Positions 23,230-53,171 of a stretch of 64,000 bases of DNA are shown here, piece after piece. The DNA is from Gammaproteobacteria bacterium (GTDB taxonomy: Bacteria > Pseudomonadota > Gammaproteobacteria > Thiohalospirales > Thiohalospiraceae), in contig WFVH01000031.1 in assembly GCA_015491735.1 (NCBI GenBank), forward strand, positions 1 to 64,000, given 5' to 3'. How positions within the stretch are numbered: position 1 is the first letter of the stretch; the number at the start of each line of letters is the position of its first letter. Under the pieces are notes generated by a model. It was not told where the DNA came from. It searched no databases and worked only from the letters and a program-made list of their open reading frames with translations. The position numbers and the translations under genes are program-made.

Positions 23230-24936
23230 ATGAGCAATGACAAGTTTTCACCTCAATTGTTGAGAGCCATTCTCAAGGCCGAGGGTGTCGAGAGCGATGG
23301 CAAGGGTATGGATGATATGCCTGTATTGACACCGCCAGGCCAGCCATCCCTGCAGAAGCTGGCGCCGCAGGAGCGAAAAGATGCATTGAGACAACTGGCT
23401 TCTCTGATATCACAGTTTCGTTCCCTATCCGTCGATTCCGATGAATTGATGTCGTTCCATCCCGAAGAGATGCCCAATCTGCTCCGGCTGTTGGCCGAGC
23501 TGGCAACGGAGGTCAAAGAGGATGAAAAGAACAGGGAGGAGAAAATAAAAGTGCTTCACGTGGCTGCGGCGATGCTGCGCCGAATGCTGCATGGATCCGA
23601 TACCAGCCACTATCGGGTCATGGGCCTGCCCACCGGCGCCACCCCGGCCCAGATATCAGAACACTATCAGTTGTTGTACAAACTGTTCTGGTTCGATGAA
23701 GCGGTCGATCCGCAGAGAAAGAGCCGTTTGCGCATCTCGGAAGCCTATACGGTGCTCAAGGAGCCGGAACTGCGCCGCCGGTATGATGAAGACCTGGCCA
23801 GGCTGGAGCAAACCCGCCTGGCGGGCAGCGAGCGCCGGAGAAAGCGCTGGCCGCTTGTTGCAGCTGTTCTGCTGGCGGTTTCGGGCGTTACTGGCCTGCT
23901 GCTGTTTTCCGGCGGTGGATCTGACGAGTCCGACAGGGAAGTCGCTCTCCAGCCGGGCACACCGGAAGAGGAGGTGGTCTCCTCCCTGCCGGAAAAGCAA
24001 GAGAAGATTGTCCATGAAACCGAGCCGTTATTACCTGATGCGTTTCCCGGCCATACTGCAGGGGAAGATGCCGTTTTGATGGGGGGCGGCACTGCTGCGG
24101 AGGATGGTGATGCCGGTGACGACGTTGAGACGGATGCGCAGCAAACGGAATCCCTGACTGCGGAACAGGTACAGGCCCCGAAGGGTGTAACTGCATCATC
24201 CCGCGAAGTGGAGACTTCACAAACCGAAAAAATCAGTGAGCAGAAGGAGCCCGGATTGCAGATTGCAGGAGTTGAAGCGGATTCCCCTGAACTGAAAAGC
24301 GCCGGAACACGGGTGGAAACAGAAGACAAACAGAGATACGAAATCGCACGGACCGAACCGATTCCTGCGGCGGCTCCGGCGCTAAACAATGAGCCAGCCC
24401 TGGAAGCTCCCTCTATTGAGTTGCCTTCGGCGGCGCCACCTGTCATCTCTCCGGCTACGCCCCAACCCCGTTTCTCTTCTCCCCGGGAAGAGAGCAAACC
24501 GGAAGCACCCTCCACAACCGCCATGCTGTCATCTCCACCTTCCGGAGTCGAAGCAACGGCTGCCCGTGAGCCGGATTTGGTTGTTATCGGTTCACCGGAA
24601 TTGTCCGTTGACGAGCTTACCAAGGAGCAGGTTCGCGCCATTTTTCTTGGCGAAAAGGCGTGGCTCCCAACCGGCGAGCGGGTTGCCTTTGCTGTTCCCC
24701 GGCGCAGTCGTATCGTTGACAAGCTGTTTTATCAGGGGATTGTCGGAAAGTCTCCGCGTCAGCTTGAAATCCATTGGGCAAAACTGCGCTTTCAGGGCAA
24801 ACAGCAGCCACCTGACTATCTGCCGGACGAGATGGCGGTCAAGGAGGCAGTCATCAGCTCGCCGGGGATGATCGGCATCGTGAAGAGTGATGTCGTCGAT
24901 GACTCGGTAAAAGTGCTTTTGACCATCAGTGAATGA
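23230..24936 (+). CDS. Membrane protein with degenerate J-like domain and periplasmic phosphate-binding-like domain
   Basis: 568 residues. Residues 1-125 are a charged helical region not recognised. Residues 126-190 resemble a J domain (HYRVMGLPTGATPAQISEHY, then AYTVLKEPELRRRYDEDL), but the HPD tripeptide needed to stimulate Hsp70 is replaced by WFDEA. One transmembrane helix (WPLVAAVLLAVSGVTGLLLF, about 207-226) is followed by a long Pro/Glu/Ala-rich linker (230-455). Residues 455-568 resemble the PstS-like domain found in small phosphate-binding-like proteins (VDELTKEQVRAIFLGEKAWL, GMIGIV). The likely topology is cytoplasmic J-like part and periplasmic C-terminus. It is followed 35 bp later by a porin-like gene. 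Function is unknown. Confidence 0.75.
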   Translation: MSNDKFSPQLLRAILKAEGVESDGKGMDDMPVLTPPGQPSLQKLAPQERKDALRQLASLISQFRSLSVDSDELMSFHPEEMPNLLRLLAELATEVKEDEKNREEKIKVLHVAAAMLRRMLHGSDTSHYRVMGLPTGATPAQISEHYQLLYKLFWFDEAVDPQRKSRLRISEAYTVLKEPELRRRYDEDLARLEQTRLAGSERRRKRWPLVAAVLLAVSGVTGLLLFSGGGSDESDREVALQPGTPEEEVVSSLPEKQEKIVHETEPLLPDAFPGHTAGEDAVLMGGGTAAEDGDAGDDVETDAQQTESLTAEQVQAPKGVTASSREVETSQTEKISEQKEPGLQIAGVEADSPELKSAGTRVETEDKQRYEIARTEPIPAAAPALNNEPALEAPSIELPSAAPPVISPATPQPRFSSPREESKPEAPSTTAMLSSPPSGVEATAAREPDLVVIGSPELSVDELTKEQVRAIFLGEKAWLPTGERVAFAVPRRSRIVDKLFYQGIVGKSPRQLEIHWAKLRFQGKQQPPDYLPDEMAVKEAVISSPGMIGIVKSDVVDDSVKVLLTISE

Positions 24937-24971
24937 GGCGGAATATTTTCGGGATTTATCAGGGGAATTAA

Positions 24972-26111
24972 ATGGAAATGCGCAGTAAAAGCTCTCTTCT
25001 TGCTGGGTTGTTGATGGTGACGTTGTTTTCAGCGCCCATAGCGGCGCTGGAGTTCGAGGGATTCGGCAGTGTCAGCTATCATAAACATGATGTAGTAGGT
25101 GAACATGCCAGCCGCAGTGGAGAGTATCCGGAGGGATTTACGCTGGGAGGTTTCAATCTTTATGCCTTTCAGGAGATAGGTGAGGGGACCATGGCCTTTG
25201 CCGAGTTCATCATCGGTGACTATACCGAGGAGATTGAAATGGAACGGTTGTGGATCAAACGGGTTTTTTCTCCAGTATTCGAATTCAAGGCCGGTCTGGT
25301 AGAGTCGCCACTTGGCTATTGGAACAGAACCTATCATCAGGGCGGACAGCTGCTTCAGGACAGTATAACGCGCCCGTTTTTTCTCAATTACGAAGATCAG
25401 GATGGCGCAATTTTCCCTATGGTAACGGTTGGATTTGAAATGGGAGGGACTACCCCCCTGAGGCATGGAGAGCTGGACTATACGATGATTTTTGGAAATG
25501 GCATGTCGCTCAATACGGCGGGCGAAGCGCATGACATGGACTCACTGCATGGCACCGACTCATCAGAAATCAAGATAAACATGCTGGCTGATCCAGGCGA
25601 TGACAAGCTCTTCATCTTCAGAACGGCATACCGGTTTCCCCGGTTTCCGCTGCAAATCGGGTTGTTTGGAATGAACAACCCGGTGGTAGAGTCAGGGGAG
25701 GGGAGCACAGCCAAAGTGGAGCATGGCGACAAACTGATAGCCCAGACGGTTGCGGGATTGGATCTCCACTTTTCTATGCATGGGTTCGAGACAATAGCGG
25801 AATACTATCACATCGACAATGATGATGCGGTTGGGAAAGTGAACGCCGATCCTGCCAGCGGATATTATATTCATTTCGGATATCAGCTTACTGAGCGGTT
25901 GAAGCCGCTTTACCGCTACGTCAATCTCGATATCGACGAAACAGATCCCTATTTTGCCTATCTTGGCATACGGGAACAGGAGCATCATGTTGTCGGACTG
26001 AGGTATGATCTCGACGAGAGCAATGCATTGAAGCTGGAAGTTCATCAAATGAAATTCAGTAACAAAACAGAATATCATTCACGGTTACAGTGGGCGTTTC
26101 TTATGTTCTAG
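24972..26111 (+). CDS. Outer-membrane beta-barrel (porin-like) protein
   Basis: 379 residues with a signal peptide ending near SAPIAA (about 26). The rest alternates aromatic and hydrophilic residues in beta-hairpins and ends in QWAFLMF, an aromatic-terminated strand as expected for Bam-dependent barrels. Sections such as FEGFGSVSYHKHDV, ETIAEYYHIDNDDAVG and GYQLTERLKPLYRYV resemble porin-like proteins found next to phosphate-binding-like genes. It follows the J-like/PBP-like gene by 35 bp and is probably in the same operon. The substrate is unknown. Confidence 0.8.
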   Translation: MEMRSKSSLLAGLLMVTLFSAPIAALEFEGFGSVSYHKHDVVGEHASRSGEYPEGFTLGGFNLYAFQEIGEGTMAFAEFIIGDYTEEIEMERLWIKRVFSPVFEFKAGLVESPLGYWNRTYHQGGQLLQDSITRPFFLNYEDQDGAIFPMVTVGFEMGGTTPLRHGELDYTMIFGNGMSLNTAGEAHDMDSLHGTDSSEIKINMLADPGDDKLFIFRTAYRFPRFPLQIGLFGMNNPVVESGEGSTAKVEHGDKLIAQTVAGLDLHFSMHGFETIAEYYHIDNDDAVGKVNADPASGYYIHFGYQLTERLKPLYRYVNLDIDETDPYFAYLGIREQEHHVVGLRYDLDESNALKLEVHQMKFSNKTEYHSRLQWAFLMF

Positions 26112-26431
26112 GAGTCTGCCGGATTTAGGTAATCGTAACGAGCAAAGGTGGTGAGATCTTCCTTCACCATGAAAGAAAGCAAGTGCTGACCACTAAAGAG
26201 AGTGAAGGGGGGCTGTTGGTTCCTGAAGGTGATCAGGCCGCACTGTTTATCTGCCATGCGAAGCGCCAGAGAAAAACAACGCAGGCATCCAGACAATTGT
26301 GTCGAGTCATTTGAGAGAACGCTGTGTGGCCCACCACGAAGGTAACGAGGGTGTGGGGGAGCGGCGAGGGCGCAGGACGGCCGGGGTACAATGGCTGTCC
26401 CGTTGGTGATCCGGGTGTTCCAAAATCCTTC
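26112..26431. other. Non-coding stretch between the porin-like gene and MITE copy 2
   Basis: About 320 bp. A minus-strand open frame (26108-26464) reads through and could be a remnant of an unidentified gene, but its N-terminus comes from the repeat and there is no ribosome-binding site. No terminator was recognised. Confidence 0.4.
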
Positions 26432-26583
26432 GTAACTATTCAGCTCGCCCCTCAAATCCGCCATTTCTGCGTTGAAAAATGGTCATTTACACGCGTAAAC
26501 TCCCATTTTTTGCCTTGAACTGACGAATTTCAGGGGCAATCTGAACAGTTACCGGCTTGTTTCATACGATGCTGAATAGTTGC
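26432..26583 (+). repeat. MITE-like element, copy 2, with 8-bp target duplication
   Basis: Begins GTAACTATTCAGC and ends GCTGAATAGTTGC (one change in the last bases). The direct repeat AATCCTTC is exact at 26424-26431 and 26584-26591. The internal palindrome is as in copy 1. Confidence 0.9.
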
Positions 26584-26591
26584 AATCCTTC

Positions 26592-27134
26592 AAGAGATAG
26601 CGGCATTCTTGGGGAAAAGGTGAAATAACAACTTGAACCTGTCGCCCTGATCAGCTCCTCAACCAAACTTTTTTTATCATCTGTAGCGTTGTTTTGCCGG
26701 GTTAACAAACAATCACTCCCGGTACCGCCATTTTATATCCTGTTTTTTCTGTTGGCTACCTGGTTCTGCTGTACAGAAACCGCGTTCTTTTCCAGCATAA
26801 AACCGGGGCATTGGTGCTCACAAGGATCGTTCAATCCGGCAGTAACGGCTCTTTACGCAAACTGTATAGAAAACAAAAAGAAAGAGATAAATCATCCGGT
26901 AGTAAAATCACGGACAACAGGTCAAAAAAAACGGCTTTGGGTTTTATGGAAACTCCTTATTTTGTCAATTATGTCAAGGAAATAGTCTAACATAATCAAT
27001 AGCTAAATAAGTTGCGCTTTTCAGGAAATTGTCGTTAAATTTCCCGTGCCTGGCAGCGGTTTTTTTGCCGCCGCGCTTGCGCACCCAAAATGGATTGTGT
27101 CTGTGGGACAGACAACAAAACAAGGAGTAACACA
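26592..27134. other. Leader region before the first polysaccharide operon
   Basis: About 540 bp, AT-rich in its second half. It holds a half-site TTTTGCCGGGTTAACAAAC at 26694-26711 and a short GC hairpin with a T-run (gcggtttttttgccgc near 27056-27071). A plus-strand open frame of 98 codons (26689-26985) has no recognisable domain or ribosome-binding site. AAGGAG at 27122 serves the epimerase gene. No convincing sigma-70 or sigma-54 promoter could be fixed by eye. Confidence 0.4.
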
Positions 27135-28166
27135 ATGCATATACTGATTACTGGAGGTGCCGGTTTCATCGGCTCCAATCTTGTCAAATATCATCTAAAC
27201 CAGGGTCACAAGGTTCATGTTGTCGATGACCTGAGTACCGGCCGTAAAGAGAATATCCAGCCATTTCTGCCTAACCCCGATTTTCATTTCGATGAGGGAG
27301 ATGTACTGACCTGGAGCGGACTGGAGAGAGCGGTCAGTGGCGCAGATGTGATTTATCATCTGGCCGCCGTTGTTGGTGTGTTCAAGGTTCTGAAAGAGCC
27401 CATCGAGGTGCTGGCCATCAATATCGCAGGATGTGAGCGGTTGCTTCGGGCCGCGCGCAACAGCCACTGGAACCCGCGTATCATCGTTGCCTCGAGTTCG
27501 GAGGTTTACGGCAATCGCCCCGTTGTCGACGGTGAACACATGCCGTTGCACGAAGAGCTGGAGCTGCTGATCACACCGGGAATAAATACGCGATGGAACT
27601 ACTCCATAAGCAAACTGGCGAACGAGGCGTTCGCTATTTCCTATGCCAAGGAGCATGACATGCATGTTACGGCGGTCCGGTTTTTCAATGTATGCGGACC
27701 CGGACAGAGAGGCCGCTACGGGATGGTGGTACCGCGGTTCGTCAATCAGGCCGTGAACAATGAGCCGCTGACGGTTTTCGGGAACGGCTCCCAGACCCGT
27801 TCGTTCATGGATGTCAGGGATGCCGTGAAGGCCCTGTTTGCGTTGGCCAACACAGAGAAGAGCGCTGGTGAAATCGTCAATGTCGGCAGTGACAGCGAGA
27901 TTTCCATCCTTGAGTTGGCGAAGCTGGTGAGAAAGCTGGCCAACAGTGATTCAGCCATCGAGCATCTCACCTATGAGGAGGTCTATGGCGAGGGCTTTGA
28001 CGAGATCGGCTACCGCCGACCCGCGTTGCAGAAACTGCAGACCATGACGGGCTTCAAGTCGCAATATGCTCTGGTTGATACCATCAATCATCTTATTGAT
28101 CTTTCGGCACCTGCAATCACAAGCGATATCGATGGCGACGTTTCCCTGGTTTGTTCTCGGGCCTAG
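27135..28166 (+). CDS. NAD-dependent nucleotide-sugar epimerase/dehydratase
   Basis: 343 residues, extended short-chain dehydrogenase. Residues 1-35 bind NAD (ITGGAGFIGSN, then DDLSTG). The catalytic residues are Ser in VASSSEVYG (about 121) and Tyr156/Lys160 in NYSISK. The segments RFFNVCGPGQRGRYGMVVPRF and GNGSQTRSFMDVRDAV are typical of UDP-glucose 4-epimerase and UDP-glucuronate decarboxylase relatives; exact substrate cannot be set. The ATG at 27135 has AAGGAG 7 bp upstream. The 3' end overlaps the glycosyltransferase by 35 bases, so it probably makes the sugar donor for that enzyme. Confidence 0.9.
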   Translation: MHILITGGAGFIGSNLVKYHLNQGHKVHVVDDLSTGRKENIQPFLPNPDFHFDEGDVLTWSGLERAVSGADVIYHLAAVVGVFKVLKEPIEVLAINIAGCERLLRAARNSHWNPRIIVASSSEVYGNRPVVDGEHMPLHEELELLITPGINTRWNYSISKLANEAFAISYAKEHDMHVTAVRFFNVCGPGQRGRYGMVVPRFVNQAVNNEPLTVFGNGSQTRSFMDVRDAVKALFALANTEKSAGEIVNVGSDSEISILELAKLVRKLANSDSAIEHLTYEEVYGEGFDEIGYRRPALQKLQTMTGFKSQYALVDTINHLIDLSAPAITSDIDGDVSLVCSRA

Positions 28167-29526
28167 TACCTTACTGAGCCTGTGGGGTGTCGTACGCGGC
28201 AGGAGGAGACCTCCTGCCGCCCCGCCCGCTGTCGATCTGCAGCAGTTTTCTGTCGATGTGGTCATCCCCGCCCTGAATGAAAGTGCGACTATCCCTTTGT
28301 GCCTTGCGTCGATTGCGCGGCAGACCTTGCAGCCAAGACAGATCATCCTGGTCGACGATGGTAGCAGCGATAACACGGTGGAGTATGCCCGGGCCTTTGG
28401 GGAGATAAGCGGTGTTCCACTTAAAATCATTCAGCGCGGATCACCTGTCGGCAAAACACCGACCCTGAAAAGGCAGGCCAGGGAGCTGGATTCGGATGTT
28501 GAGTTCGTTGTGGACTCGGATACGATTCTCGAATCGGACAACTACATCGAACGGGTGGTGGAAGAACTCTATCGAACGCCGGGGGTGGGGTGTGCATTTG
28601 GCTGCGTTCTTCCCCTGCGGGACAAGGATCGCCTGCAGATGCACCAGGACAAAAATATCAAACGGTTTTTCGAACGATATCCGGATGCGGTTTTACAGCT
28701 TGACGCCAGCTGGAAAAGCAGGATGCTGCGGGGCTTCACCAACCTGTACCGGGATGTTCTGTATATGTATGTGCAGCGGTTCGTCAATCGAGGGCAGATG
28801 ATGTTGTTCGGTTCCACCATCAACCCGGTGGGATGTGCAGTGGCTTACCGGAGAACCTATCTGAAAAAGGTGTTTGACCATTATGAACCGGTGTTTGGTG
28901 ACAATCTGACCAACTCGGAGGATATATTTATCGGTTTTGCGCTATTGAGCTGCGGCTATCGAAATGTTCAGATTACCGATGTCTACATGCGTTCTCAGGA
29001 GCCGGAAGCAACGCGCCTTCCCCGCCAGTTTTATCTCTGGTCATCCTCTTTTTTGCAGAGTTGTTACTATCTCGACGATCTTGTCAGGAGTCCTTTCAAG
29101 GTGTTCAGGCGTTACCGGCATCGCAAGCTTGTCGAAAAGAGGTTTGCGCAGGAGAACGGGGGAGACAGCAGGAAGAACGACGATCTTTATCGTCAGCCGT
29201 TTGGTGATCATGTGTTGAGGCGACTGGGCCGCCCCATGGGTTGGGCTGTGTTCCTGTCGCTGGGAGAGAAAATATTCTATCCCACAGCCATTGTCATCAT
29301 GATTGTTCTTGGTCTTTGGGAGGCGGTTGGTATCACCATTCTCGCGGAGGTAATCGTTACCACACTGGTTCTTACCTATGTTGCCACCGATCGCCACGCC
29401 ACCTATTTTTTCAAGGGCCTGGCGGCTACTCCAATACGTTATATGAGTCTCTTCTATGATTGGGTAACCGTAGGGCGCTTTGCCAAGGATATATGGATCA
29501 GCAAAAACACAAGATGGCGAAAGTAA
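28132..29526 (+). CDS. Membrane-linked family 2 glycosyltransferase (polysaccharide synthase-like)
   Basis: 464 residues. An N-terminal hydrophobic helix (WFVLGPSTLLSLWGVV) is followed by a GT-A domain with VVIPALNES, VDDGSSDN, VVDSDTILE (the metal-binding DxD region), TNSEDIFIGFALLSCGY (catalytic acidic residue) and LPRQFYLW, which sits where processive synthases have QxxRW. Two C-terminal hydrophobic helices follow (about 370-425). This order resembles hyaluronan synthase, NodC and PgaC. No c-di-GMP-binding PilZ domain or PgaD partner is visible. It overlaps the epimerase by 35 bases and stops 5 bp before the next gene. An earlier ATG at 28066 is possible but would lie deeper in the epimerase. 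Confidence 0.87.
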   Translation: MATFPWFVLGPSTLLSLWGVVRGRRRPPAAPPAVDLQQFSVDVVIPALNESATIPLCLASIARQTLQPRQIILVDDGSSDNTVEYARAFGEISGVPLKIIQRGSPVGKTPTLKRQARELDSDVEFVVDSDTILESDNYIERVVEELYRTPGVGCAFGCVLPLRDKDRLQMHQDKNIKRFFERYPDAVLQLDASWKSRMLRGFTNLYRDVLYMYVQRFVNRGQMMLFGSTINPVGCAVAYRRTYLKKVFDHYEPVFGDNLTNSEDIFIGFALLSCGYRNVQITDVYMRSQEPEATRLPRQFYLWSSSFLQSCYYLDDLVRSPFKVFRRYRHRKLVEKRFAQENGGDSRKNDDLYRQPFGDHVLRRLGRPMGWAVFLSLGEKIFYPTAIVIMIVLGLWEAVGITILAEVIVTTLVLTYVATDRHATYFFKGLAATPIRYMSLFYDWVTVGRFAKDIWISKNTRWRK

Positions 29527-29531
29527 GTAAC

Positions 29532-32500
29532 ATGGCGGTAAAGCTTCTTTTTCGGGTATGTTTCATGCTGGCTGTGGGATTGAGCACTCCGCCGGCCTAT
29601 AGTCAATCCACACCGCCGGAGGAAGGCCTCAGGGCCGAGATGGCGCAGGAGTGGCAAAGGGCGGTTTCGATATACGAGCGTGTGCTGAAAACGGAACCCG
29701 GGAGAGCTGATCTGTGGAAGCGCATTGCCGACATCAAAATTCACCTCAAAGACCCTGATGGCGCCATTGAGGCGCTGGAAAAAGCGGCGGAGATTCAGCC
29801 GCACAACGCTGCCTTGAACTCAAAGCTGGCCACCCTGCTCGGAATGCAGCATCAGCCCGAACGGGCATTGCGTTTTGCCCAAAAAGCAAGGGATGCCGAA
29901 CCGGGCAACACGGCGTATCTGCAGGCGCACGCCCGGTTGGCCAACTGGTTAAAGCGCTTTTCCGAAGCTGCGGAAAGCTATGAGCGGCTCTATGCCATGC
30001 AGCCTGACGATGAGCTGGCTCTGCGTAACCTGGCCAATAGCTGGTCTTGGGCAAATCGTCATGACAAGGCGATCCGGGTTTACGAAGAGTTTCTTGCCAG
30101 GCATCCGCGGAACGTGGAGATATGGCTCGCGCTGTCCCGTGAAAAAACAAGGCAGGGCGATCAACAGGGAGCGCTGTCTGCATTGAGCAAGGCGGCCCGT
30201 TTACGGCCGGACGATGCGCAGATCAGTGCCGAGCTTTCACGGCTGTACTCGATGAACAACCAGCCTGAAAAAGCCTTGGAGTACGCCCGCCATGCCACAA
30301 AATCGGAGCCTGGCAATATTGCCTATTTGCAGGCCCATGCGCAGATTGCCAACTGGCTGAAGCGTCCCGCGGAAGCTGTTGTGAGTCTCGAAAAAATCGT
30401 TGCATTGAGGCCGGATGACGACGAGGCGCGGCGCACGCTGGCAGACACCTACCGCTGGGCTGGAGAAGGGCGAAAGGCGACCGCACTCTATGAAGCCTAT
30501 CTCAACGAAAACCCCCAGGATTTGAAACTGTGGCTGACGGTGGCAGACAGCAAGGTGGGGCAGGGTGATGTCAGGGGCGCGGCGGCTCTGCTCGAGAAGG
30601 CCTTTGAAAAATTTATCCCTGCTGCCATCAAGCCAAAACGGGTGCGCCAGAAGGAAGAGAGGAAGTTGCCGGTTTTGCTCTATCACTGTATCGGAGACAA
30701 GGCAGACAACGACTACTGGTTATCGGCAAGTGAATTCGATGCCCAGATGAAACAGTTGAAAGAGATGGGTTATCAGTCCATTACCTCGCGCAATCTTGAA
30801 GACTATCTGTTTGATCAAGGACGGCTGCCGGATAAAGCGGTAATGATCACCTTCGACGATGCCTGCGCCAATCTCTATACCCATGCGTGGCCCATTCTCA
30901 AAAAATATGGTTTCGTTGCGGACATCTATATTTTTACCGGTGCCATCCGCCATACCGGGGCGGACAGAGCGAGTATCGTACAGCATGTCAACGGTAAGGA
31001 TACGCGGCTGGAGTACCTGATCTGGCCGGAGATCAAAGAGATGATCGGGGAAGGGCTGGTCATTGGCGCCCACAGCAAAACACATGCGGACATGGCCACC
31101 CTCACCCCGGATGAGCTAAAGTATGAGATCCTGGCCTCCAAATTGCGCATTTTCGCCGAAACCGGTGTCGTGGCGACATCGTTCAGCTATCCTTTTGGCA
31201 GTGGCTATAACCGAACCGAGGCCCATCGGCTGCTTCGTTCCGCCGGGTTCGATATCGCGTTTTCCGCCCACGGGGGCGTAGAGCATCTTCGCTTCATCGA
31301 ACCGATGAAAATCAAACGGGTCGAAATATGGGGGCCACATCCAAAGATCGATCCGGGAAGCCGGGGTGTTTCTGTCGTTCCGGATCCTTTTCGTCCCTAC
31401 GATCTGTTTCGTAACCGGCTGAATCCGGATGAGGCCGGAGTCCACTATGAGCAGGCACGCCTTTACGCTGCCGTTCAGGAAAAGAGGCTGGCCTATGAGG
31501 AGATTGAAAAGGCGTTGTCTCTCGAGCCGGGGAGCCGGCGCTATCTCAGATTCATGACGCAGCTGGCGGACTGGAACAACCGTGGGCAGCTTTCCGCAGC
31601 AATGGCCGGGTTCAATAAACTCCAGGTGCTGGGGGAGCAGGATGATGAGCTGCTACTCAGTCAGGCGAGAATGCTCTCCTATGCCGGCAAGATGGATGCG
31701 TCGGAACGCCTGTACGCGGCGTACCTGCGGTCCCGTCCGGATGACAAGGATGTATTGATTGAGCATGTCAAGGTGCAGTCTTGGCGGGGCAATGTTGGCA
31801 GGGCCGTTCAGCTGCTGAGTGATTATCGCCATCGATTCGGAGAGGATGATAGCTGGCGGGAAACGAAGATGGAGGTGCTTTCATGGGCAAATCGTCCGCA
31901 GGAGACCCGTAACCTGATTGAGCCGATAATTGAAAAAAAACCTGATGATTACCGAGCAAACTTTGCCCATGCCCTTTCCCTGCATTTCGGAAATGAGCCG
32001 CGCAAGGCGCTGGATGCGCTGAAAGAGGTGGAGCAGCGTTTCCCCGGCGCCGGGGGAAATCCTCTGCTGACAAAAATCATTACGGATCCACATCGCCCGG
32101 AGGTGGAAGGGAGCGTTGCATATGTCAGCTCGTCAGAGGAGCTCGATGCGCTATCCAGTCGTGTTCAGGGAAATTACTCGCTCAACCCGGAGACGAGGGT
32201 AAGTCTCGGTTATGTCAATGAGCGATTTACAGCCCAGGCCGGCAGCGGGCTGGAGAACATCGATGGTAGTGAGAATGCCGGATACTGGAGTATCCTGCTG
32301 GGTCTCCGCCACCGTTTTTCGCCACGGTTTTCAGGGGATCTCCATCTTGGACAGGCCTCGGCCGAAGGGGAGTCGCTACTCGTTTCCAAGGCCGGCGTGG
32401 ATATTGAACCGCTGGACTCCGTCGATGTTCGACTGGAATACTCCCGGGACTATTTTCATGACTACTACTCCAGCTCTCCCCGAACGATATCTCTGGGTAT

Positions 32501-32996
32501 CGAAGCGGACAGGAGCCGCCTGTCTCTGAATTGGCGACCCGGTTTTAACTATCATATTCTGGCGAGAGGGGGGTACAGCGAGTTCTCCGATGGAAACAGC
32601 AGCAGGGATTTCTCTTTCGCTGTTCGCCGCGCCATTGCGAGAACGCAGCACTGGAATACCGATTTTGGATTTTCCGCAGCGCTATTGGACTTTTCCAGGG
32701 AGCGGGACAACGGCTATTATGATCCTGATAATTACCAGCGGTACATGGTGAGCGGTACCGGCTACTGGAAAGCCGGAGACAAGGGGGGGGTGAATATATC
32801 GTTGGCGATTGGGGCGGCGAAAGACGATACGATGGACGGTTTCAAGTTCGCCTCTGAAGCCGGTATCAACGGAAAATACGATTTTGGCACCGACTGGTTA
32901 TTTGGTTTTGGAATCAGCGGTGTGCATAACGTGACGCGCGGCGGTGGGGCTTACACCGGGAATGGCGTCAATGTATCGGTGGTCAGACGGTTCTAG
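29532..32996 (+). CDS. TPR - polysaccharide deacetylase - TPR - outer-membrane barrel fusion protein
   Basis: 1154 residues. Signal peptide about 1-25 (MAVKLLFRVCFMLAVGLSTP start). Residues 30-365 hold about nine tetratricopeptide-like repeats (two LQAHAxxANWLKR copies). Residues 378-630 are a NodB/CE4 deacetylase: VLLYHCIGD, TFDDACANLYTHAWPIL (metal Asp 443), GAHSKTHADM (His 514 and 518) and SFSYPFGSGYN. Residues 635-845 are TPR-like again. Residues 850-1154 alternate as beta-strands (SLGYVNERF, VRLEYSRDYFHDYY, ISLGIEADRS) and end in VSVVRRF, an aromatic-terminated barrel. PgaA has TPR plus barrel and PgaB has the deacetylase; here both occur in one chain. The start at 29532 was chosen because it gives the signal peptide. 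Confidence 0.88.
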   Translation: MAVKLLFRVCFMLAVGLSTPPAYSQSTPPEEGLRAEMAQEWQRAVSIYERVLKTEPGRADLWKRIADIKIHLKDPDGAIEALEKAAEIQPHNAALNSKLATLLGMQHQPERALRFAQKARDAEPGNTAYLQAHARLANWLKRFSEAAESYERLYAMQPDDELALRNLANSWSWANRHDKAIRVYEEFLARHPRNVEIWLALSREKTRQGDQQGALSALSKAARLRPDDAQISAELSRLYSMNNQPEKALEYARHATKSEPGNIAYLQAHAQIANWLKRPAEAVVSLEKIVALRPDDDEARRTLADTYRWAGEGRKATALYEAYLNENPQDLKLWLTVADSKVGQGDVRGAAALLEKAFEKFIPAAIKPKRVRQKEERKLPVLLYHCIGDKADNDYWLSASEFDAQMKQLKEMGYQSITSRNLEDYLFDQGRLPDKAVMITFDDACANLYTHAWPILKKYGFVADIYIFTGAIRHTGADRASIVQHVNGKDTRLEYLIWPEIKEMIGEGLVIGAHSKTHADMATLTPDELKYEILASKLRIFAETGVVATSFSYPFGSGYNRTEAHRLLRSAGFDIAFSAHGGVEHLRFIEPMKIKRVEIWGPHPKIDPGSRGVSVVPDPFRPYDLFRNRLNPDEAGVHYEQARLYAAVQEKRLAYEEIEKALSLEPGSRRYLRFMTQLADWNNRGQLSAAMAGFNKLQVLGEQDDELLLSQARMLSYAGKMDASERLYAAYLRSRPDDKDVLIEHVKVQSWRGNVGRAVQLLSDYRHRFGEDDSWRETKMEVLSWANRPQETRNLIEPIIEKKPDDYRANFAHALSLHFGNEPRKALDALKEVEQRFPGAGGNPLLTKIITDPHRPEVEGSVAYVSSSEELDALSSRVQGNYSLNPETRVSLGYVNERFTAQAGSGLENIDGSENAGYWSILLGLRHRFSPRFSGDLHLGQASAEGESLLVSKAGVDIEPLDSVDVRLEYSRDYFHDYYSSSPRTISLGIEADRSRLSLNWRPGFNYHILARGGYSEFSDGNSSRDFSFAVRRAIARTQHWNTDFGFSAALLDFSRERDNGYYDPDNYQRYMVSGTGYWKAGDKGGVNISLAIGAAKDDTMDGFKFASEAGINGKYDFGTDWLFGFGISGVHNVTRGGGAYTGNGVNVSVVRRF

Positions 32997-33000
32997 ACCC

Positions 33001-33085
33001 CATGATTGAACTTGCAAGCCAGTTCAATCATGAAGTCTGATGTTTTAGTCAACAACTGTGCCAGAAAACACCTTCTGGCACAGTT
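33001..33085. repeat. Two adjacent perfect hairpins after the fusion gene
   Basis: Hairpin 1: catgattgaact (33001-33012) and its exact complement (33021-33032) around an 8-nt loop. Hairpin 2: aactgtgccagaa (33054-33066) and its complement (33073-33085) around a 6-nt loop. TTGCAAG occurs in loop 1 and again at 33088, and tgatgtttta/taaaacatatca frame the second. No T-run follows, so a terminator is unlikely. A half-site of the 41416 repeat (gtactccgtcaaggtaatca) follows at 33108. Confidence 0.8.
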
Positions 33086-33156
33086 GCTTGCAAGTTAAAA
33101 CATATCAGTACTCCGTCAAGGTAATCATTGAAGATGATGCGCAGGATGTTTGTTTC

Positions 33157-34116
33157 ATGACAGGATGCCGTTATTTGTCAACCGGGTACCGGGCTTTCGC
33201 GGCTATTCTGGTTTTCTTTCTATGCTTGTCTGTTTTCAGTCCACCCTCGGTTGCCGGGGGTAGCGGTATCACCGCCGGGAAACTGCTGCACATGAAACTG
33301 GTCGACAAGACCATCACTGATGCCGATCTGGATCACATCAAGGCGCTTGGATTCACTGTTCTGAACAGTGAGTGGGGAATGGATGCCGTTCCGCCTGCAC
33401 AGCTTTTGGCGCTGCTCGATCGGTTTCACCAGCGTGGGCTGAGGTTTATCGTCAATCTTTCCGACAGCGCAGCGTGGGGTTATCGGCCCGACGGTAACTA
33501 TACTGCGGATCAGCCACCCGTCTGGCAGGCCGCCAAGGTAAAGAGCTATATTGAAAGAATACGTCACCACCCGGCCATCTATGCCTACGATATATCCAAT
33601 GAAGCCGGGGAGAATTTGCCGAACGGGCTGCACATACGCATCAGCCTCGAACAGATGCGTGAGGCGGCCGCTGATGTCAGGTTTGCCGACAGAAAGCGTC
33701 CCGTTCTAATCCGTATGCGTTACTGGGACGAAATGGACGGTGATTTCACCGACAAAAGTCCTTTCGGAACAGATGTCGCGGACATCGTTATGTTGAACCT
33801 CTATAGTAACTACTCGACGGATGGTACCAGGGTGTTGCTGCCGAATATGGTCAAAGATTCGGGAAAGAAACTGGTGGAGAAGATACTGGCGGTGGATGGT
33901 TCGGTCAAAATCTGGATTAGCCTGGCCGCCTTTCGTGATATGCCTCATTTCATCAAGCCTGCCGTCGCCGATATCAAACGGGATATTCGGGCTGCAGTTG
34001 CCATTGAGGGGGTGGAAAGCATTGGGTTCTTTGGTTGGGGGAGTCCGGAGAATCGTGAGGGGTGGTATCTGCCACGTGAAGGGGCGGAGTTGCTGGAGTT
34101 TTTGCGTGTGCGATGA
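33157..34116 (+). CDS. Secreted glycoside hydrolase-like protein (clan GH-A type)
   Basis: 319 residues with a signal peptide (AFAAILVFFLCLSVFSPPSVAG, about 13-34). The TIM-barrel-like part has HIKALGFTVLNSEWGMD, RFIVNLSDSAAWGY, HHPAIYAYDISNEAGENLP, where NE would be the acid/base of a GH-A enzyme, and GVESIGFFGWGSPENREGWY near the end. A glycoside hydrolase family number cannot be set by eye. The ATG at 33157 is preceded by AGGAT and gives the signal peptide. It lies 160 bp after the fusion gene. Periplasmic hydrolase domains accompany PgaB, PelA and similar export machines, so a trimming role on the same polymer is plausible. Confidence 0.7.
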   Translation: MTGCRYLSTGYRAFAAILVFFLCLSVFSPPSVAGGSGITAGKLLHMKLVDKTITDADLDHIKALGFTVLNSEWGMDAVPPAQLLALLDRFHQRGLRFIVNLSDSAAWGYRPDGNYTADQPPVWQAAKVKSYIERIRHHPAIYAYDISNEAGENLPNGLHIRISLEQMREAAADVRFADRKRPVLIRMRYWDEMDGDFTDKSPFGTDVADIVMLNLYSNYSTDGTRVLLPNMVKDSGKKLVEKILAVDGSVKIWISLAAFRDMPHFIKPAVADIKRDIRAAVAIEGVESIGFFGWGSPENREGWYLPREGAELLEFLRVR

Positions 34117-35188: not shown

Positions 35189-36190
35189 TTAGGCGAAAAG
35201 ACGGGGCAGCAGCGCATTTCCTTTATAGACAGACAAATCGGGAGATGGGCTGATTCTCTTTATGTCAAACGGATCGGCTATGCATCCATAGTTGGTTCCG
35301 GTGTTAAAAGAAAATCCAAGCGTGTATCCCGCCTCGCGCGCATTTTTCTTCGTTCTCTCGGAGAACGCATGATAACCACCCACAGGATAGGCGATTGAGT
35401 GGATCTCCCGAGACAGTTTTTGCTGCAGGAATACTCTGGAGTTACGTAGTTCCCCAAGCTCATCATCATCGTTGATAGTGGAGAGTACCCGATGAGAGAC
35501 AGTATGTGAACCGATGCTCAGGTTGCTTGTGTTTGCGATCTCCTCAATCTGCTCCCAACCCATTAGCTGCTCGCGTTGAGCAGAGCGAGGGGGAAATGCC
35601 ACCTCACACTGGTTCGACAAGCGATCCAGCAGATCATTCGATTTTTCGTGCGCCACGGCTTTCATATAGGTCAATAGCCGGTGCCGGGCCGCTTCCCTGT
35701 CTTCATGCGTAAGCAAGGAGATGCGTTCATTATCCAGGGTGATCTCTTTTTTTTCTGTTTGGCTGACAAAATAGGCAATAATATCCCACCAACCGAGCAC
35801 CGAGTTTTCTATGTTATAGGTGGGAATAAAAAAAATAGCCGGGATTTGGTGCTTCTTCAGTACAGGTAGCGCCAGTTGATAGTTGTCTCGATAACCGTCA
35901 TCAAATGTCACCAGCGCATTCTTGCCGAAAAACGGTTGTTTGGTATGAGTCAGATTGATCAGATCGTTTTCAGATAGCAAATTGAAATTTTCCCGCAGAA
36001 AAGCCATTTGCTGTTCAAACTCATATACGGAAGGGCCGAATACGCTTGGATCGAAGGGAGTGCTTAGCTTGTCCTCATATATTCTGTGATAATTTACTAT
36101 TGTCAACGTATTACCTGGAGTACGGCTGACCATATCCAGTAGCCGGGTAGTTTCGAGAATTTTGGCTAGCAGCTTCTTTTTTCCCTTCAT
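35189..36190 (-). CDS. Polysaccharide deacetylase family protein
   Basis: 333 residues, NodB/CE4 homology domain, no clear signal peptide. Visible motifs: LTIVNYHRI, LVTFDDGYRDNYQLALPVL (metal Asp near 98), IGSHTVSHRVL (two metal His) and IHSIAYPVGGYHAFS. An insertion with WWDIIAYF and a helical region (about 135-200) is typical of the XrtA-associated and O-antigen-linked members. The ATG at 36190 has GGAGGAG five bases upstream, which decides against the in-frame TTG at 36202. It follows the acyltransferase on the same strand; possible role: removing N-acetyl groups from lipid-linked sugar. Confidence 0.87.
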   Translation of the reverse strand: MKGKKKLLAKILETTRLLDMVSRTPGNTLTIVNYHRIYEDKLSTPFDPSVFGPSVYEFEQQMAFLRENFNLLSENDLINLTHTKQPFFGKNALVTFDDGYRDNYQLALPVLKKHQIPAIFFIPTYNIENSVLGWWDIIAYFVSQTEKKEITLDNERISLLTHEDREAARHRLLTYMKAVAHEKSNDLLDRLSNQCEVAFPPRSAQREQLMGWEQIEEIANTSNLSIGSHTVSHRVLSTINDDDELGELRNSRVFLQQKLSREIHSIAYPVGGYHAFSERTKKNAREAGYTLGFSFNTGTNYGCIADPFDIKRISPSPDLSVYKGNALLPRLFA

Positions 36191-36444
36191 TTTCTCCTCC
36201 AAAAATACTTCGTTTATCCTGAAAAGAGATATCCGGATCTTCCCACCCAGTGACGTTGACGTTGGTATATGGATAGCAGCCCCCGGCCATGGACACCTTT
36301 AATTTTATTGGATATCATGTGGTTTCCAACTAATCCTCATTCATTTTATCGGCTTAATCACAATATGGATCATGTCTCATCCGCCGGGCGCCGCTGCGCA
36401 GCAAGGCATCAAAAACCACATCTTTCATCTTTAGCTGACGGACT

Positions 36445-37629
36445 TCAGAGGCCGTCTGAGCCGCTACCTCCAACTGTTGAAACTTGTTCAGAACGGTTAC
36501 AGCCATTCTTCGTTTGAAACAGGGCCATTGTCTGTTTGTAGGCTTTTTTGCTTTTCTGCTCAATCCAGGCCCGGATACTCTTTCGTTGCAATCTGAACCA
36601 CACCATTCTGTAGTGATCGGTAGCCAGGCTCTTTTTGTAGCGTGAGTTTCCGGCCAGGAAATCATATCGGCCATAGTCGAGTTTGGCATTCATCATTATC
36701 GTGAAATAATGGGAGATCAGACCCGGCCTGGCATGGTTGTTATCGAGATAATTGAATCCACACTGATAGAACAAAACCTGGTCATCATATACATAGTTGT
36801 AGAGGTATCCGATGGTGTCGGTGGAGTTGTATATATGGACCAGTTGAATCATTCCAGAACAGAAAAACCTGTCAATCAATGTTTTGTGAAATGTCATAAA
36901 GTACTGATTTGAGAAGGCCCCAGGTTTTCCCCGCCTGTTCCACTCCTTTTGATGCAATGCGGCCAGATTGTCCAGCATTTTCAGCGCTTCCATCCTGCTT
37001 TCTGCCTGATGTATACGAATGTCACCCTGTTTTTCATGCTCCCGTATGGAACGCCTGATTTGTTGTCTTCTGTTTGGGCTGAGAAGAGAGAGATAATCCA
37101 TTCCAGTGTCTCTTATTCTTTTGAGATCGACATAATAGGAGTTGGTGTCTCTCTCTTCGATAATATTGAGATTATCCCGTTGTTGTTTAAAAGAGTGTTC
37201 CATTTCATCAAGGGAACTGCCTGATATCCCGGGCAGATAAAGCTCATCCCAATTTTCTTTGGTTGCCTGGCAAATTTCGTCGATGATATTGACTTTCAGA
37301 TCCGGCTGCACAAGTGCTCCGTTGCATTCGATAGATATTTCATCAAAATAGTCATCCCCCGTGGAGTTCAGGGATGCCGTCCTGTAGCAGAACAGTTTAT
37401 GGCGAATTACCGCCTTCTTCCCGATGAAAAATGCGATGACAGTTTCACCACTCAAACGTCCGGCTATCAGCTCTATTTTTGAGTGTTTCGGCAACGTTGA
37501 CAGCCAGACAGAGACCCATTCCCACGAGAGGAAAACCCCCCCTTTCGTTTTGGTTAGCATTTGGCGCCATATCTCTTCCACCTTCTCCGGGTTCTGAAGC
37601 GCATCTATCGTCTCATACTCTATTTTCAT
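36445..37629 (-). CDS. GNAT/FemAB-like acyltransferase (CelD/BcsL type)
   Basis: 394 residues. WEWVSVWLSTLPKHSKIELI in the N-terminal half and the later LLSPNRRQQIRRSIREHEKQ, GFNYLDNNHARPGLISHYF and YDFLAGNSRYKKSLAT are typical of the acetyltransferase domain (GNAT_6) in cellulose- and polysaccharide-linked CelD/BcsL proteins. Such proteins probably acylate cell-surface polymers; substrate unknown. The ATG at 37629 is used because further upstream the frame enters the palindromic repeat at 37675-37786. It is transcribed with the deacetylase at 36190, 254 bp downstream. Confidence 0.8.
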   Translation of the reverse strand: MKIEYETIDALQNPEKVEEIWRQMLTKTKGGVFLSWEWVSVWLSTLPKHSKIELIAGRLSGETVIAFFIGKKAVIRHKLFCYRTASLNSTGDDYFDEISIECNGALVQPDLKVNIIDEICQATKENWDELYLPGISGSSLDEMEHSFKQQRDNLNIIEERDTNSYYVDLKRIRDTGMDYLSLLSPNRRQQIRRSIREHEKQGDIRIHQAESRMEALKMLDNLAALHQKEWNRRGKPGAFSNQYFMTFHKTLIDRFFCSGMIQLVHIYNSTDTIGYLYNYVYDDQVLFYQCGFNYLDNNHARPGLISHYFTIMMNAKLDYGRYDFLAGNSRYKKSLATDHYRMVWFRLQRKSIRAWIEQKSKKAYKQTMALFQTKNGCNRSEQVSTVGGSGSDGL

Positions 37630-37674
37630 TTTTTTCAGGCGACTGTTGGCATGACCGGCAGTGTTCCATCCTCT

Positions 37675-37786
37675 ATCAACCCGGCAACAATAGATAGCGC
37701 GTTCAAGGTTTGAAGGACAGGTCTGCAAGACCGGGCCAAGCTGTTTTTGGAACCCTGAATGCGCTATCTATTGTTGCCGGGTTGAT
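37675..37786. repeat. Palindromic repeat of the TTGCCGGGTTAA family
   Basis: Arms are perfect over 26 nt: atcaacccggcaacaataga opens it and its complement ends at 37786; with mismatches the pairing extends to about 36 nt. The internal GGGCC...CTGTT...GAACCCTGAA segment is shared with 14601-14758. It lies between the acyltransferase and epimerase genes. Confidence 0.9.
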
Positions 37787-37824
37787 GTCTGTCTGTTCCT
37801 TGTTGTTTCTTCTGGATTGTAGCG

Positions 37825-38835
37825 TTATTTCAGGTTCCTGAAATAGTCAAAGCTCTTTTTCATCCCTTCCTGCGTGGAGACCAGCTGCCGCCAACCTGTT
37901 TTTTTCAGTTTTTCATTATCGAAGCGGTGTCCTTTCCACAGGTTGGCCGTTTTGTAAGGGGTAAAAATAGCGGGAAGCTGCCCCCTGGAGTATTGGTGAT
38001 ACCATTCTACCGCTCTTGAACCCATCTGTAGCAGAGGATAGGGAACCGGAATGGCCCGAACCTTTTTAACCTGCCGTTTGTAGGATTTGAGATACTCCCG
38101 GGAAGTGGGCAAATCATCATCGTGCACATTGAATACAGACACCCCTGCCATGTTTTTTTGGGCGCAGTGCACAATCGCCTCGGCGCAGTTGTCCACATAG
38201 CTGAGGGGTAGTATGTTGCTTCCTCCCAGGTGGAGAAATATACTCCCAAACTGCAGGCCTACTCTACCTGAAACAGCACTGCCGTGCGGGCCATAGATTA
38301 CCCCGGGCCTGAGAATGGTCAGAGGGAATTCATGTTCTTTTTGACAGGCCAGAAGCAGTTTTTCCTGGTGCCATTTCACAAATGCGTAGGGGTCTCTTCT
38401 TTCAGGGTGCGTCTCCAATGGGGTCTGTTCTGTAATGAGACTGCCGGCTGGCAGATTGGCTGCACCGTATACCGAAAAAGAGCTGACATGGACAACGTGT
38501 ATACCCGGGTTTTCAGAGATCACCGCTTCCATGAGATATTTGGTGCCAACCACCGTATTGAGAAACATGTCTGCCGGGGCTCCACTCAGCGATGCCGCCA
38601 AATGATAGATGGTATCGACACCCCTTATGGCCTCAAGGGGGTCTTTCCTGGAGACCAGGGTTCCCGTATGGTAATGGATATCTGCATCGGGATACTCCTC
38701 CTTGAGCCGTTCGAGCCGGCTCCTGTCGCTTCCCTCCCTTACCAGGCAGCGGATATGTCTAACTCCATGCAGCGCGAGCCGCTCCACCAAGGCCGAGCCG
38801 AGAAACCCGTTTGAACCGGTAACAAGAACTGTCAT
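37825..38835 (-). CDS. NAD-dependent nucleotide-sugar epimerase/dehydratase
   Basis: 336 residues, extended SDR. LVTGSNGFLGSALVERL binds NAD(P); VVHVSSFSVYG holds the catalytic Ser; Tyr150 and Lys154 in DPYAFVKWHQEK complete the triad; ILRPGVIYGPHG is the substrate loop. Substrate unknown. Its ATG overlaps the stop of the upstream oxidoreductase (ATGA), so the two are translationally coupled and probably act on the same nucleotide sugar. Confidence 0.88.
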   Translation of the reverse strand: MTVLVTGSNGFLGSALVERLALHGVRHIRCLVREGSDRSRLERLKEEYPDADIHYHTGTLVSRKDPLEAIRGVDTIYHLAASLSGAPADMFLNTVVGTKYLMEAVISENPGIHVVHVSSFSVYGAANLPAGSLITEQTPLETHPERRDPYAFVKWHQEKLLLACQKEHEFPLTILRPGVIYGPHGSAVSGRVGLQFGSIFLHLGGSNILPLSYVDNCAEAIVHCAQKNMAGVSVFNVHDDDLPTSREYLKSYKRQVKKVRAIPVPYPLLQMGSRAVEWYHQYSRGQLPAIFTPYKTANLWKGHRFDNEKLKKTGWRQLVSTQEGMKKSFDYFRNLK

Positions 38836-39923
38836 GTCGCTGTTTCCTGCCTGTTTATCTGATCAAATATCTCATCCATCATCCAGGCGATACGGAGGAT
38901 ATCTCTATGGGATACCGGGGGTGGGGTATCGTTTAGAATGCTGTCATAGAAACGGGAGATGAGATTGTGCATTCCTGCGAAAAAGTGGAAGTCGGAGCGT
39001 ATGAAGCGGCCAACGTTGCGCCACCCCTCCCTCCGGTACTGTTTCCCCATATTGAACGCCGGAAGCAACCTGCCCAGGGCGCTGGGCAGTGTTGGCTCCT
39101 GCTCCAAAGTGACTGTACGGGAGACGAAGTCAGCATGAGCAATATTTTTGGTTCCATACAGCCGCATGAAGTGGGCGGCCGGCTTTATGTGAGAGGAGAA
39201 GGTTGCATAGGCAGTAGTCGAGCTTCCCTGAATCATCAGCCTCAGCTCGTCCGGCATCTCATCGCGGATATCTCCCAGCCTGGTGGTTCGCCGAATGTCG
39301 CTAAACACTTTTATGACCGGCCGCTCATCCTGTACGAACTCGATGACCTTGTTGAGCAGGTGATCGATATTGTTCTGAAACAGTTTGCCTGGCAGGGCAT
39401 GTACCCAGTGAGTGCCGTTGCCCAGAATGGCCTTGCCAAAAGAGCCGCCGAGGCTGTATCCATAGAAGCTTTCTACATGAACAGGATCACCGATTACCCC
39501 TTGTCCGACCAGCTCTCTCAGCGTGAGGGCCGGTGGATCGAAGTAATAGATGTGTCCAATGGTGAGTTTGCGCCCCTTTTCCTGTGCGTATTCGACAAGC
39601 TGTCTCGTCTCCTTGTACGAAGGGGTAAAGGGTTTTTCGACATAGACATGACATCCGGCATCGATAGCAGATACAGCCAGCGGTAGATGAGCTTGAGGGG
39701 GGGTGGTGATATGCACCACGTCCGGCTGCTCTTTTTCCAGCATCTGTTCCAGTTTGTCGTAATACCGCGGCACTCCGTGGCGGGATGCAGCCTGCTCGGC
39801 CATCAGGATCTCCAGATCACAGACCGCGACCACTTCAGCACGGGTCAGTTTCTGAACTTCGCTTATGTGACCATCCGCTATCTGGCCACATCCCACGATG
39901 GCTGTTTTCAATGTCGTTTTCAT
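38832..39923 (-). CDS. Gfo/Idh/MocA family oxidoreductase
   Basis: 363 residues. The N-terminal Rossmann domain has AIVGCGQIADGHISEVQ and AVCDLEILMAEQAASRHG, followed by DVVHITTPPQAHLPLAVSAI and the hallmark CHVYVEKPFTPSYKE, where the Lys contributes to catalysis. The C-terminal alpha/beta domain includes NGTHWVHALPGKLF. Such enzymes oxidise nucleotide sugars, for example at C3. The ATG at 39923 is preceded by weak GGGAAC; longer in-frame sequence belongs to a palindromic repeat. The stop overlaps the epimerase start. Confidence 0.9.
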   Translation of the reverse strand: MKTTLKTAIVGCGQIADGHISEVQKLTRAEVVAVCDLEILMAEQAASRHGVPRYYDKLEQMLEKEQPDVVHITTPPQAHLPLAVSAIDAGCHVYVEKPFTPSYKETRQLVEYAQEKGRKLTIGHIYYFDPPALTLRELVGQGVIGDPVHVESFYGYSLGGSFGKAILGNGTHWVHALPGKLFQNNIDHLLNKVIEFVQDERPVIKVFSDIRRTTRLGDIRDEMPDELRLMIQGSSTTAYATFSSHIKPAAHFMRLYGTKNIAHADFVSRTVTLEQEPTLPSALGRLLPAFNMGKQYRREGWRNVGRFIRSDFHFFAGMHNLISRFYDSILNDTPPPVSHRDILRIAWMMDEIFDQINRQETAT

Positions 39924-39927
39924 TACT

Positions 39928-40110
39928 GGTTGTTCCCGGTACATATTTGGTGGCGGGGTCGGCTGCAACATGCTGACATGCCATTGCAGCGCCCCCGGAA
40001 GGTTTTGGCAACGCCGCCAGCGAGTGAAGCAACCCGTGACGGCGCGCTGCGCCTTGTTCCGGCCCGTTTCTGAAACTCCGAATACCGCGTAAATTGTTGC
40101 CGGACCAATA
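39928..40110. repeat. Diverged palindromic repeat of the TTGCCGGGTTAA family
   Basis: Its right side (TTCCGGCCC...CTGAAACTCCGAATACCGCG...TTGTTGCCGGACCAAT) parallels the right side of 14601-14758, and the left begins with the imperfect complement ggttgttcccggtacatatt. It fills the gap between the GT4 and oxidoreductase genes. Confidence 0.55.
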
Positions 40111-40134
40111 GCGGCAGGGCGTTGAGGCCCCTGT

Positions 40135-41256: not shown

Positions 41257-41287
41257 AGTCTGTTTTTCCCGCAGGAACTGCCCCGTG

Positions 41288-41348
41288 GTTTGCCCCTGAA
41301 ATCCGTTTTTTCTGCGTTGAAAACGGGCTGTTTAACCCTGTAAAATCA
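41288..41348 (+). repeat. Truncated MITE-like copy
   Basis: Matches the left half of the family (TTTGCCCCTGAAATCCG, then TCTGCGTTGAAAA and a diverged TTTAACCCTGTAAA) but lacks both terminal GTAAC ends. It lies just upstream of the minus-strand GT4 gene, where its promoter would be expected. Confidence 0.7.
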
Positions 41349-41415
41349 CATGTTGCCGGCCCAGTTGCAAAGCAGGGGAACGGCGATGGGTATTCGTTTT
41401 GCCGGGTTAACGAGA

Positions 41416-41534
41416 CTGGTACTCCGTCAAGGTAATCAATACAGCGTTCCTGTGGTGTATTACAGCAAGGCGATACAGCCACGGGCGCTGACAGGCCGGC
41501 TGCATTCTGAAAGATCGCCTTGACGGAGCACTGG
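41416..41534. repeat. 119-bp inverted repeat
   Basis: Arms ctggtactccgtcaaggtaa at 41416 and the imperfect complement gatcgccttgacggagcact ending at 41534 (about 22 nt, three or four mismatches). A single copy of the left arm lies at 33108-33127 and a weaker one at 45868. The half-site TTTTGCCGGGTTAAC precedes it at 41398. Confidence 0.75.
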
Positions 41535-42031
41535 ATCTGTTCCAAACCCGGCTATTATCTCACAGTACCAGGCCGCCAATCTACCGGTGTGCCGGGTTTG
41601 CAGCGGCTGTCATGCTGCTATATGCTACTACAGTCGTATGTGAGCCAGGGGTGGGTTTACATTGTTTTTTCAAAGGGCTATCCGCCACTTTTTATGTGTT
41701 ATCAACCTGACAGCAGCGGACTCTGCTTCGGGAGGTTTTCGGGAGGTTGTGGCCGCGCCTTGTCGGCCATTTTAGCATAGACTGTTTTCGTCCGATATCT
41801 CTGTGCATCGCCAGATGGCGGCACATTCGATGTTCGGGTAGTTGTGTTTTTCCTTGTTGGAAGGGGTGAGATGAGCATGCTCTCAGTTACCGGAAAATGT
41901 AGTCAACGGACAGATGAGCGCCTGGGTGCAACTTTCGGGGTCGCCGGGCCAATGATATCGGGGAGGAAATATTTGTCCGGGACTGCAACCGGGCGATGGA
42001 TCTATTCGGTCTCTGTCCTCCAGGGGTGTTG
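41535..42031. other. Non-coding stretch upstream of the acetyltransferase gene
   Basis: About 500 bp. Short plus-strand frames of 60-86 codons show no recognisable protein. A GC-rich palindrome-like section lies near 41735-41775 (gggaggttttcgggaggttg). No promoter could be set with confidence. Confidence 0.4.
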
Positions 42032-43105: not shown

Positions 43106-43178
43106 CGCTGCAATGGCTACTTGCATGGAAGTGGAGCGGAGTATCCGCTTGGGCCACCACTGCATCCTCTCACTATTG

Positions 43179-53170: not shown

Positions 53171-53171
53171 A

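Follow-up and report, generated by a model that had tools for sequence, protein, structure and literature searches.

A candidate exopolysaccharide secretion cassette with a deacetylase built into the TPR region of its putative outer-membrane exporter

In the poly-β-1,6-N-acetyl-D-glucosamine (PNAG) system of Escherichia coli, the outer-membrane-proximal tetratricopeptide repeats (TPRs) of PgaA have been reported to bind the deacetylase domain of PgaB and to stimulate its activity (PMC9384988), and the TPR-barrel exporter PelB has been shown to enhance deacetylation by PelA (PMC12022489). In both systems deacetylase and exporter dock, and the coupling of polymer deacetylation to export is still an open question. 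Fusions between components of such machines are also known: in Zymomonas the genes for BcsZ and BcsC are fused, joining a periplasmic polymer enzyme to the pore (PMC7112194), and in N-terminal GT-PgaB fusions, which probably reside in the inner membrane and occur in operons without pgaA, a deacetylase of carbohydrate esterase family 4 (CE4) is joined to a glycosyltransferase (Bundalovic-Torma 2020, PMC7112194). No description of a deacetylase lying within a TPR array was found in the open-access literature, subscription papers being outside the search. Here we describe a four-gene cassette (27135-34116, plus strand) in a stretch of 64,000 nucleotides (the window) that forms positions 1 to 64,000 of contig WFVH01000031.1 (assembly GCA_015491735.1), from a gammaproteobacterium of the family Thiohalospiraceae. 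Judging from the sequence, one of its proteins appears to unite physically the chemical editing of a polymer with its export.

The four genes encode an extended short-chain dehydrogenase/reductase (SDR), a membrane glycosyltransferase of family 2 (GT2), the exporter with its inserted deacetylase, and a protein resembling glycoside hydrolases (GH) of clan GH-A. A check of the open reading frames (ORFs) found all of them at or near the coordinates proposed by the first-pass annotation, a model's reading of the letters and ORFs of the window. The SDR and GT2 reading frames share 35 bases, the gap between GT2 and exporter is 5 bases and the GH-like gene comes next, a layout that fits a single operon. 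ORFs and domains likewise support the first-pass view of a polysaccharide synthesis and export operon with modification and export physically joined.

In the exporter, a signal peptide is followed by about ten TPRs, a complete CE4 deacetylase of the PgaB/IcaB type, six to seven further TPRs and a predicted 16-strand barrel. TPR matches flank the Pfam domain Polysacc_deac_1 (residues 431-573, E 2e-18) on both sides, and the family PgaA_barrel (PF21197) matched residues 984-1070 below threshold (E 3e-4, 20.4 bits vs a cut-off of 27). In the AlphaFold2 model, made from 11 aligned homologues (mean pLDDT 79.7, pTM 0.47), residues 30-361 fold into 20 helices, an alpha/beta domain spans about 381-576, helices of the TPR type follow at 634-854, and residues 857-1153 form 16 strands. 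Pfam and the model thus bear out the domain order that had been read from the letters, and the model contains what had been set as its structural test, namely two TPR superhelices around the deacetylase and a barrel in residues 850-1154. A Foldseek search with the full-length model retrieved mainly eukaryotic TPR proteins, with E. coli BcsC among the best matches; a sequence search of the PDB with the barrel alone gave no credible match. Pfam, AlphaFold2 and Foldseek together recovered the periplasmic TPRs and outer-membrane barrel of synthase-dependent secretion, and the CE4 domain, its motifs intact, would be the periplasmic modification enzyme. In exporter and modification enzyme, the cassette fits the wider kind of synthase-dependent exopolysaccharide secretion.

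Of the eight genomes of the genus, five carry the cassette, including that of the window, and all five species have both the CE4 domain and the GH-like gene. In the other four, the exporter is again a single ORF, of about 1150-1170 amino acids and 57-66% identical to the window's copy. The CE4 motifs of the window protein are LLYHC (H385), TFDD (D442/D443), HSKTH (H514/H518) and YPFG, and TFDD, H-x-K-[ST]-H and YH are kept in all five species. CE4 is also the most conserved domain of the exporter (66-79% vs 49-69% for the others), with a ratio of nonsynonymous to synonymous substitution rates of about 0.1 where synonymous sites are unsaturated. An assembly error, which separate genes in homologous genomes were to have revealed, and a chance fusion are both ruled out by the recurrence of the fusion and by purifying selection. 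Among solved structures, the relatives of the domain include 4wcj and the PgaB structures 3vus and 4f9d. A tree showed no supported grouping of the insert with the genome's own PgaB or with the neighbouring standalone CE4 (35189-36202), and both were set aside as its source. In two other genomes, ORFs of 539-604 amino acids carry a C-terminal CE4 after 300-350 amino acids of other sequence (L060 445-2256, L063 589-2205) and are possibly further deacetylase fusions.

A search with the exporter part from CE4 to the barrel, covering 369 genomes of the class, identified seven genomes matching only beyond CE4, to which seven more loci from one order were added. All 14 genomes, which belong to five families besides the window's, carry SDR, GT2 and TPR/barrel genes, with no CE4 in the exporter, no gene showing CE4 motifs in the stretch retrieved and no GH gene. 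Two of these loci are looser cases: in L074 the exporter is found on the other side of the SDR, and SDR and GT2 are separated by a dehydrogenase gene; in L073 the SDR shows just 32% identity, and the reading frame of the GT2 is split into two pieces, in a sequence with ambiguous bases. In L073 (3890-7663) the module also adjoins a PgaC-like GT2 gene. Common to the exporters are an N-terminal P...AEM...W signature and a terminal Phe. When they are aligned, residues ~364-628 in the window protein stand out as a single clean insertion, in the loop that links helix B of a TPR to helix A of the following repeat. In a GT2 tree, whose very distant outgroup leaves the root position uncertain, the four CE4-containing loci whose GT2 is complete fall into one clade (support 100/100). 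SDR, GT2 and exporter form a module of their own, known elsewhere without CE4, and these sequences are most simply read as one joint gain of CE4 and the GH gene. The module is sparse, since a phylum-wide GT2 search (E 1e-30) matched only the window's own genome in that sample; a plasmid collection held no close relatives, the matches listed being mostly NodC-like GT2s and standalone CE4s.

The GT2 matches PF00535 (E 3e-21) and has N- and C-terminal hydrophobic segments, as read from its sequence. Residues D75-D76, D128-x-D130, S262-E263-D264, Q299 and W303 are invariant in ten homologues. Processive GT2s usually have a QxxRW motif; the window protein has Q299xxLW303, and the aligned homologues have Leu or Met in place of the Arg. 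Of the proposed “processive-type GT2 synthase”, the membrane GT2 with D, DxD and (S)ED motifs stands, but the motif is QxxLW, not QxxRW. The GH-A-like gene most likely starts at ATG 33157 rather than with the longer GTG ORF, because the first ~28 codons of that ORF match two other sites in the genome and homologues align from this Met. No Pfam family matched the protein; its AlphaFold2 model, of medium confidence (pLDDT 70.9), is a (beta/alpha)8 barrel, for which Foldseek gave PslG (5bx9, E 4e-9) as best match, with GH5 enzymes also ranking high. Retaining hydrolases of clan GH-A have an acid/base Glu after beta-4 and a nucleophile Glu on beta-7. In an alignment of five homologues, the Asn-Glu pair of beta-4 (N148-E149) is invariant, and none has a Glu in or just after beta-7 (KIWISLAAFRD) as predicted by this medium-confidence model. 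The protein may consequently bind rather than cut, so that, of the secreted GH-A-like hydrolase of the first-pass annotation, the fold is retained, the start is moved and the activity is doubtful.

The cassette probably encodes an undescribed synthase-dependent exopolysaccharide system, in which CE4 was gained once in the genus and is tethered beside the outer-membrane-proximal TPRs. The SDR, which likely supplies the nucleotide sugar, would make or modify it, and the membrane GT2 would polymerise the sugar and deliver the chain to the periplasm. There the N-terminal TPR superhelix would take up the chain, the CE4 domain in the solenoid would strip acetyl groups from it, the C-terminal TPRs would guide it onward and the barrel would release it; the GH-A-like protein may play an accessory part, binding this polymer or trimming it. 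The deacetylase would have been inserted once into an originally CE4-less exporter, just ahead of the outer-membrane-proximal TPRs. As CE4 sits immediately before these repeats, the coupling known from PgaA and PgaB could here come from covalent linkage, the built-in domain replacing a docking partner. Several observations weigh against this explanation. The GT2 is absent from three of the eight genomes of the genus; with QxxLW in place of the usual arginine motif its processivity is presumptive; and the GH-A-like protein may be inactive. In addition, CE4 and its flanks were modelled with lower confidence (block pLDDT ~31-85), unlike the TPRs and the barrel, and with a pTM of 0.47 the placement of CE4 on the solenoid is not fixed by the model.

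A rearranged PNAG system, with the GT2 as a divergent PgaC, the fusion as PgaA plus the PgaB deacetylase and the GH-like protein as the PgaB hydrolase domain, appears quite improbable. The CE4 domain does match PgaB/IcaB-type enzymes, and TPRs and barrel have a weak likeness to PgaA, but no cassette protein reaches the curated cut-offs (Pfam/NCBIfam) by which Pga membership was judged: PgaA (TIGR03939) 104 of 367 bits, PgaB (CE4) 71 of 322 and PgaC 42 of 422. The genome has a separate pga operon with pgaA, pgaB, pgaC and, where pgaD would be expected, a small membrane ORF, and this pgaB holds its only GHL13 domain, a family to which the GH-A-like protein does not belong. The cassette is thus not the genome's PNAG system, and on these two lines of evidence its reading as a Pga system was rejected. 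The lack of a supported grouping with the genome's own PgaB also speaks against a rearrangement, as does the occurrence of the module without CE4 elsewhere, always with the SDR. The first-pass annotation had seen neither PgaD nor PilZ, and ORFs and Pfam agree: the cassette contains no PgaD-like gene, none lies between GT2 and exporter, and no PilZ domain was matched, though a c-di-GMP receptor may use a different site or be encoded in another part of the genome. The CE4 that it placed inside a TPR-barrel exporter is supported. Its PNAG comparison is an analogy only, and where it proposed a rearranged PgaA and PgaB, the comparison of loci points instead to a CE4 inserted into an exporter that lacked one, the GH-like gene occurring in precisely those loci that have CE4. 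It also seems unlikely that CE4 acts on peptidoglycan, or is a mere binding module, and opens the wall for the exporter. The CE4 family includes peptidoglycan deacetylases, standalone YadE-like CE4s span the same region at 30% identity, and the exporter crosses the periplasm. However, PgaB-type enzymes bearing the N-terminal YH motif are among the closest solved relatives, the 14 homologous exporters work without CE4, and the insertion co-occurs with a GH-like gene, a pairing of functions also seen in PgaB and PelA.

A narrower form of the favoured explanation, rather than an alternative to it, is that a decarboxylated sugar is built into the polymer, in which case the SDR would make UDP-xylose, a UDP-4-keto-pentose or, from UDP-GlcNAcA, UDP-N-acetyl-xylosamine, and CE4 would remove N- or O-acetyl groups. 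This is conceivable, with somewhat less than an even chance. No CE4 enzyme is known to act on a pentosamine polymer of this kind. Pfam and NCBIfam assign the SDR to the epimerase family; its best PDB matches are to UXS1 (E 1e-44 with the single sequence, 7e-61 with a profile), ArnA ranking below UXS1 but ahead of characterised 4-epimerases such as WbpP. Residues S120, S121, E123, Y156, K160 and R294 are invariant in ten homologues, and the Arg, which has been used as a family marker of decarboxylases (PMC10338323), aligns to that of UXS1; the protein therefore has the whole UXS/ArnA marker set (SSE/TSE, YxxxK and the equivalent of ArnA R619). The SDR, called an epimerase in the first-pass annotation, hence looks more like an enzyme of the UDP-glucuronate decarboxylase type. 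In addition, one CE4-less locus carries a gene for a TviB-like UDP-GlcNAc 6-dehydrogenase, and elsewhere in the window's genome lie two genes for nucleotide-sugar dehydrogenases, judged by eye to be one UDP-glucose-type and one TviB-like. Together with the likeness of the SDR, these genes make a pentose or pentosamine polymer possible. On the other hand, SDR subclasses are poorly separable by sequence alone, the best partial NCBIfam match of the protein is LegB, and the uncharacterised structure 8vr2 has the marker Arg too. Still more tentative is the broader proposal of an uncharacterised SDR/GT2/TPR-porin class, spread over at least six gammaproteobacterial families and making a decarboxylated-sugar polymer (xylose, N-acetyl-xylosamine), with the deacetylase built into the channel in one lineage.

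Table 1. Genes of the cassette and predicted domains of the exporter (window coordinates).
Feature	Coordinates	Strand	Evidence
SDR, extended, 343 aa, UXS/ArnA type	27135..28166	+	PDB matches, conserved residues
GT2, membrane, 464 aa, putative polymer synthase	28132..29526	+	PF00535, motifs
Exporter with inserted deacetylase, 1154 aa	29532..32996	+	ORF, Pfam/NCBIfam, alignment, AlphaFold2
N-terminal TPR superhelix, ~10 repeats, residues 29-361	29616..30614	+	Pfam TPR, AlphaFold2 (block pLDDT ~81-92)
CE4 deacetylase insert, residues ~377-630	30660..31421	+	PF01522, PDB relatives, motifs
C-terminal TPR superhelix, six to seven repeats, residues 631-854	31422..32093	+	Pfam/NCBIfam TPR, AlphaFold2
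Outer-membrane beta-barrel, 16 strands, residues 857-1154, C-terminal RRF	32100..32993	+	AlphaFold2 (block pLDDT mostly 85-95), PF21197
GH-A-like (beta/alpha)8 protein, exported, 319 aa	33157..34116	+	Alignment of five homologues, AlphaFold2, Foldseek

Upstream of the cassette (23230-26111) lie genes for a DnaJ-domain protein (568 amino acids) and a porin-like protein (379 amino acids). They are found there in every member of the genus with a long enough contig (four genomes) and may be part of the cassette in this genus. The region 35189-54549 holds a neighbouring polysaccharide cluster with a standalone CE4, FemAB-like, SDR, GT4, GNAT, Wzx-like, Wzy_C, Poly_export and Wzz genes, and looks like a distinct locus of the Wzx/Wzy type. 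In other members of the genus, the flanks seen downstream have a different gene content. Finally, a dispersed repeat of about 153 bp (26424-26596, again at 45942-46097) has about 40 listed copies in the genome (92-98% identity), opposite-strand matches of about 75% and a fold as one long hairpin (z -3.9), is present at several contig ends, and looks like a miniature inverted-repeat element.

The natural fusion fixes the geometry and the 1:1 stoichiometry of deacetylase and exporter, and the 14 unfused relatives with the same synthase type can serve directly for comparison. As a whole, the module seems to be an exopolysaccharide system that has escaped study, and the chemistry of its polymer is possibly new.

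Compared with known systems, the cassette shares with PgaABCD of E. coli a GT2, a TPR and barrel exporter and a PgaB-type CE4, but here the deacetylase is covalently part of the exporter, PgaD is lacking, an SDR gene is present and the GH-like protein is of another family. Pel likewise combines a TPR-barrel exporter (PelB) with a deacetylase-hydrolase partner, although its deacetylase is a CE21 in the separate PelA and other Pel genes were not seen in the cassette. PslG (GH39) is the closest solved fold for the GH-A-like protein, at only ~15% identity and a TM-score of 0.48-0.60; the window protein lacks a Glu in or just after the predicted beta-7, and the cassette has no psl genes. BcsC is a TPR-barrel exporter too, and the Zymomonas BcsZ-BcsC protein is a precedent for an enzyme-pore fusion, but BcsZ is a hydrolase, no CE4 is present, and the paper describes no insertion within the TPR solenoid (PMC7112194). 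In the GT-PgaB fusions, as here, a CE4 deacetylase is joined to another part of an exopolysaccharide machine, the partner there being a glycosyltransferase.

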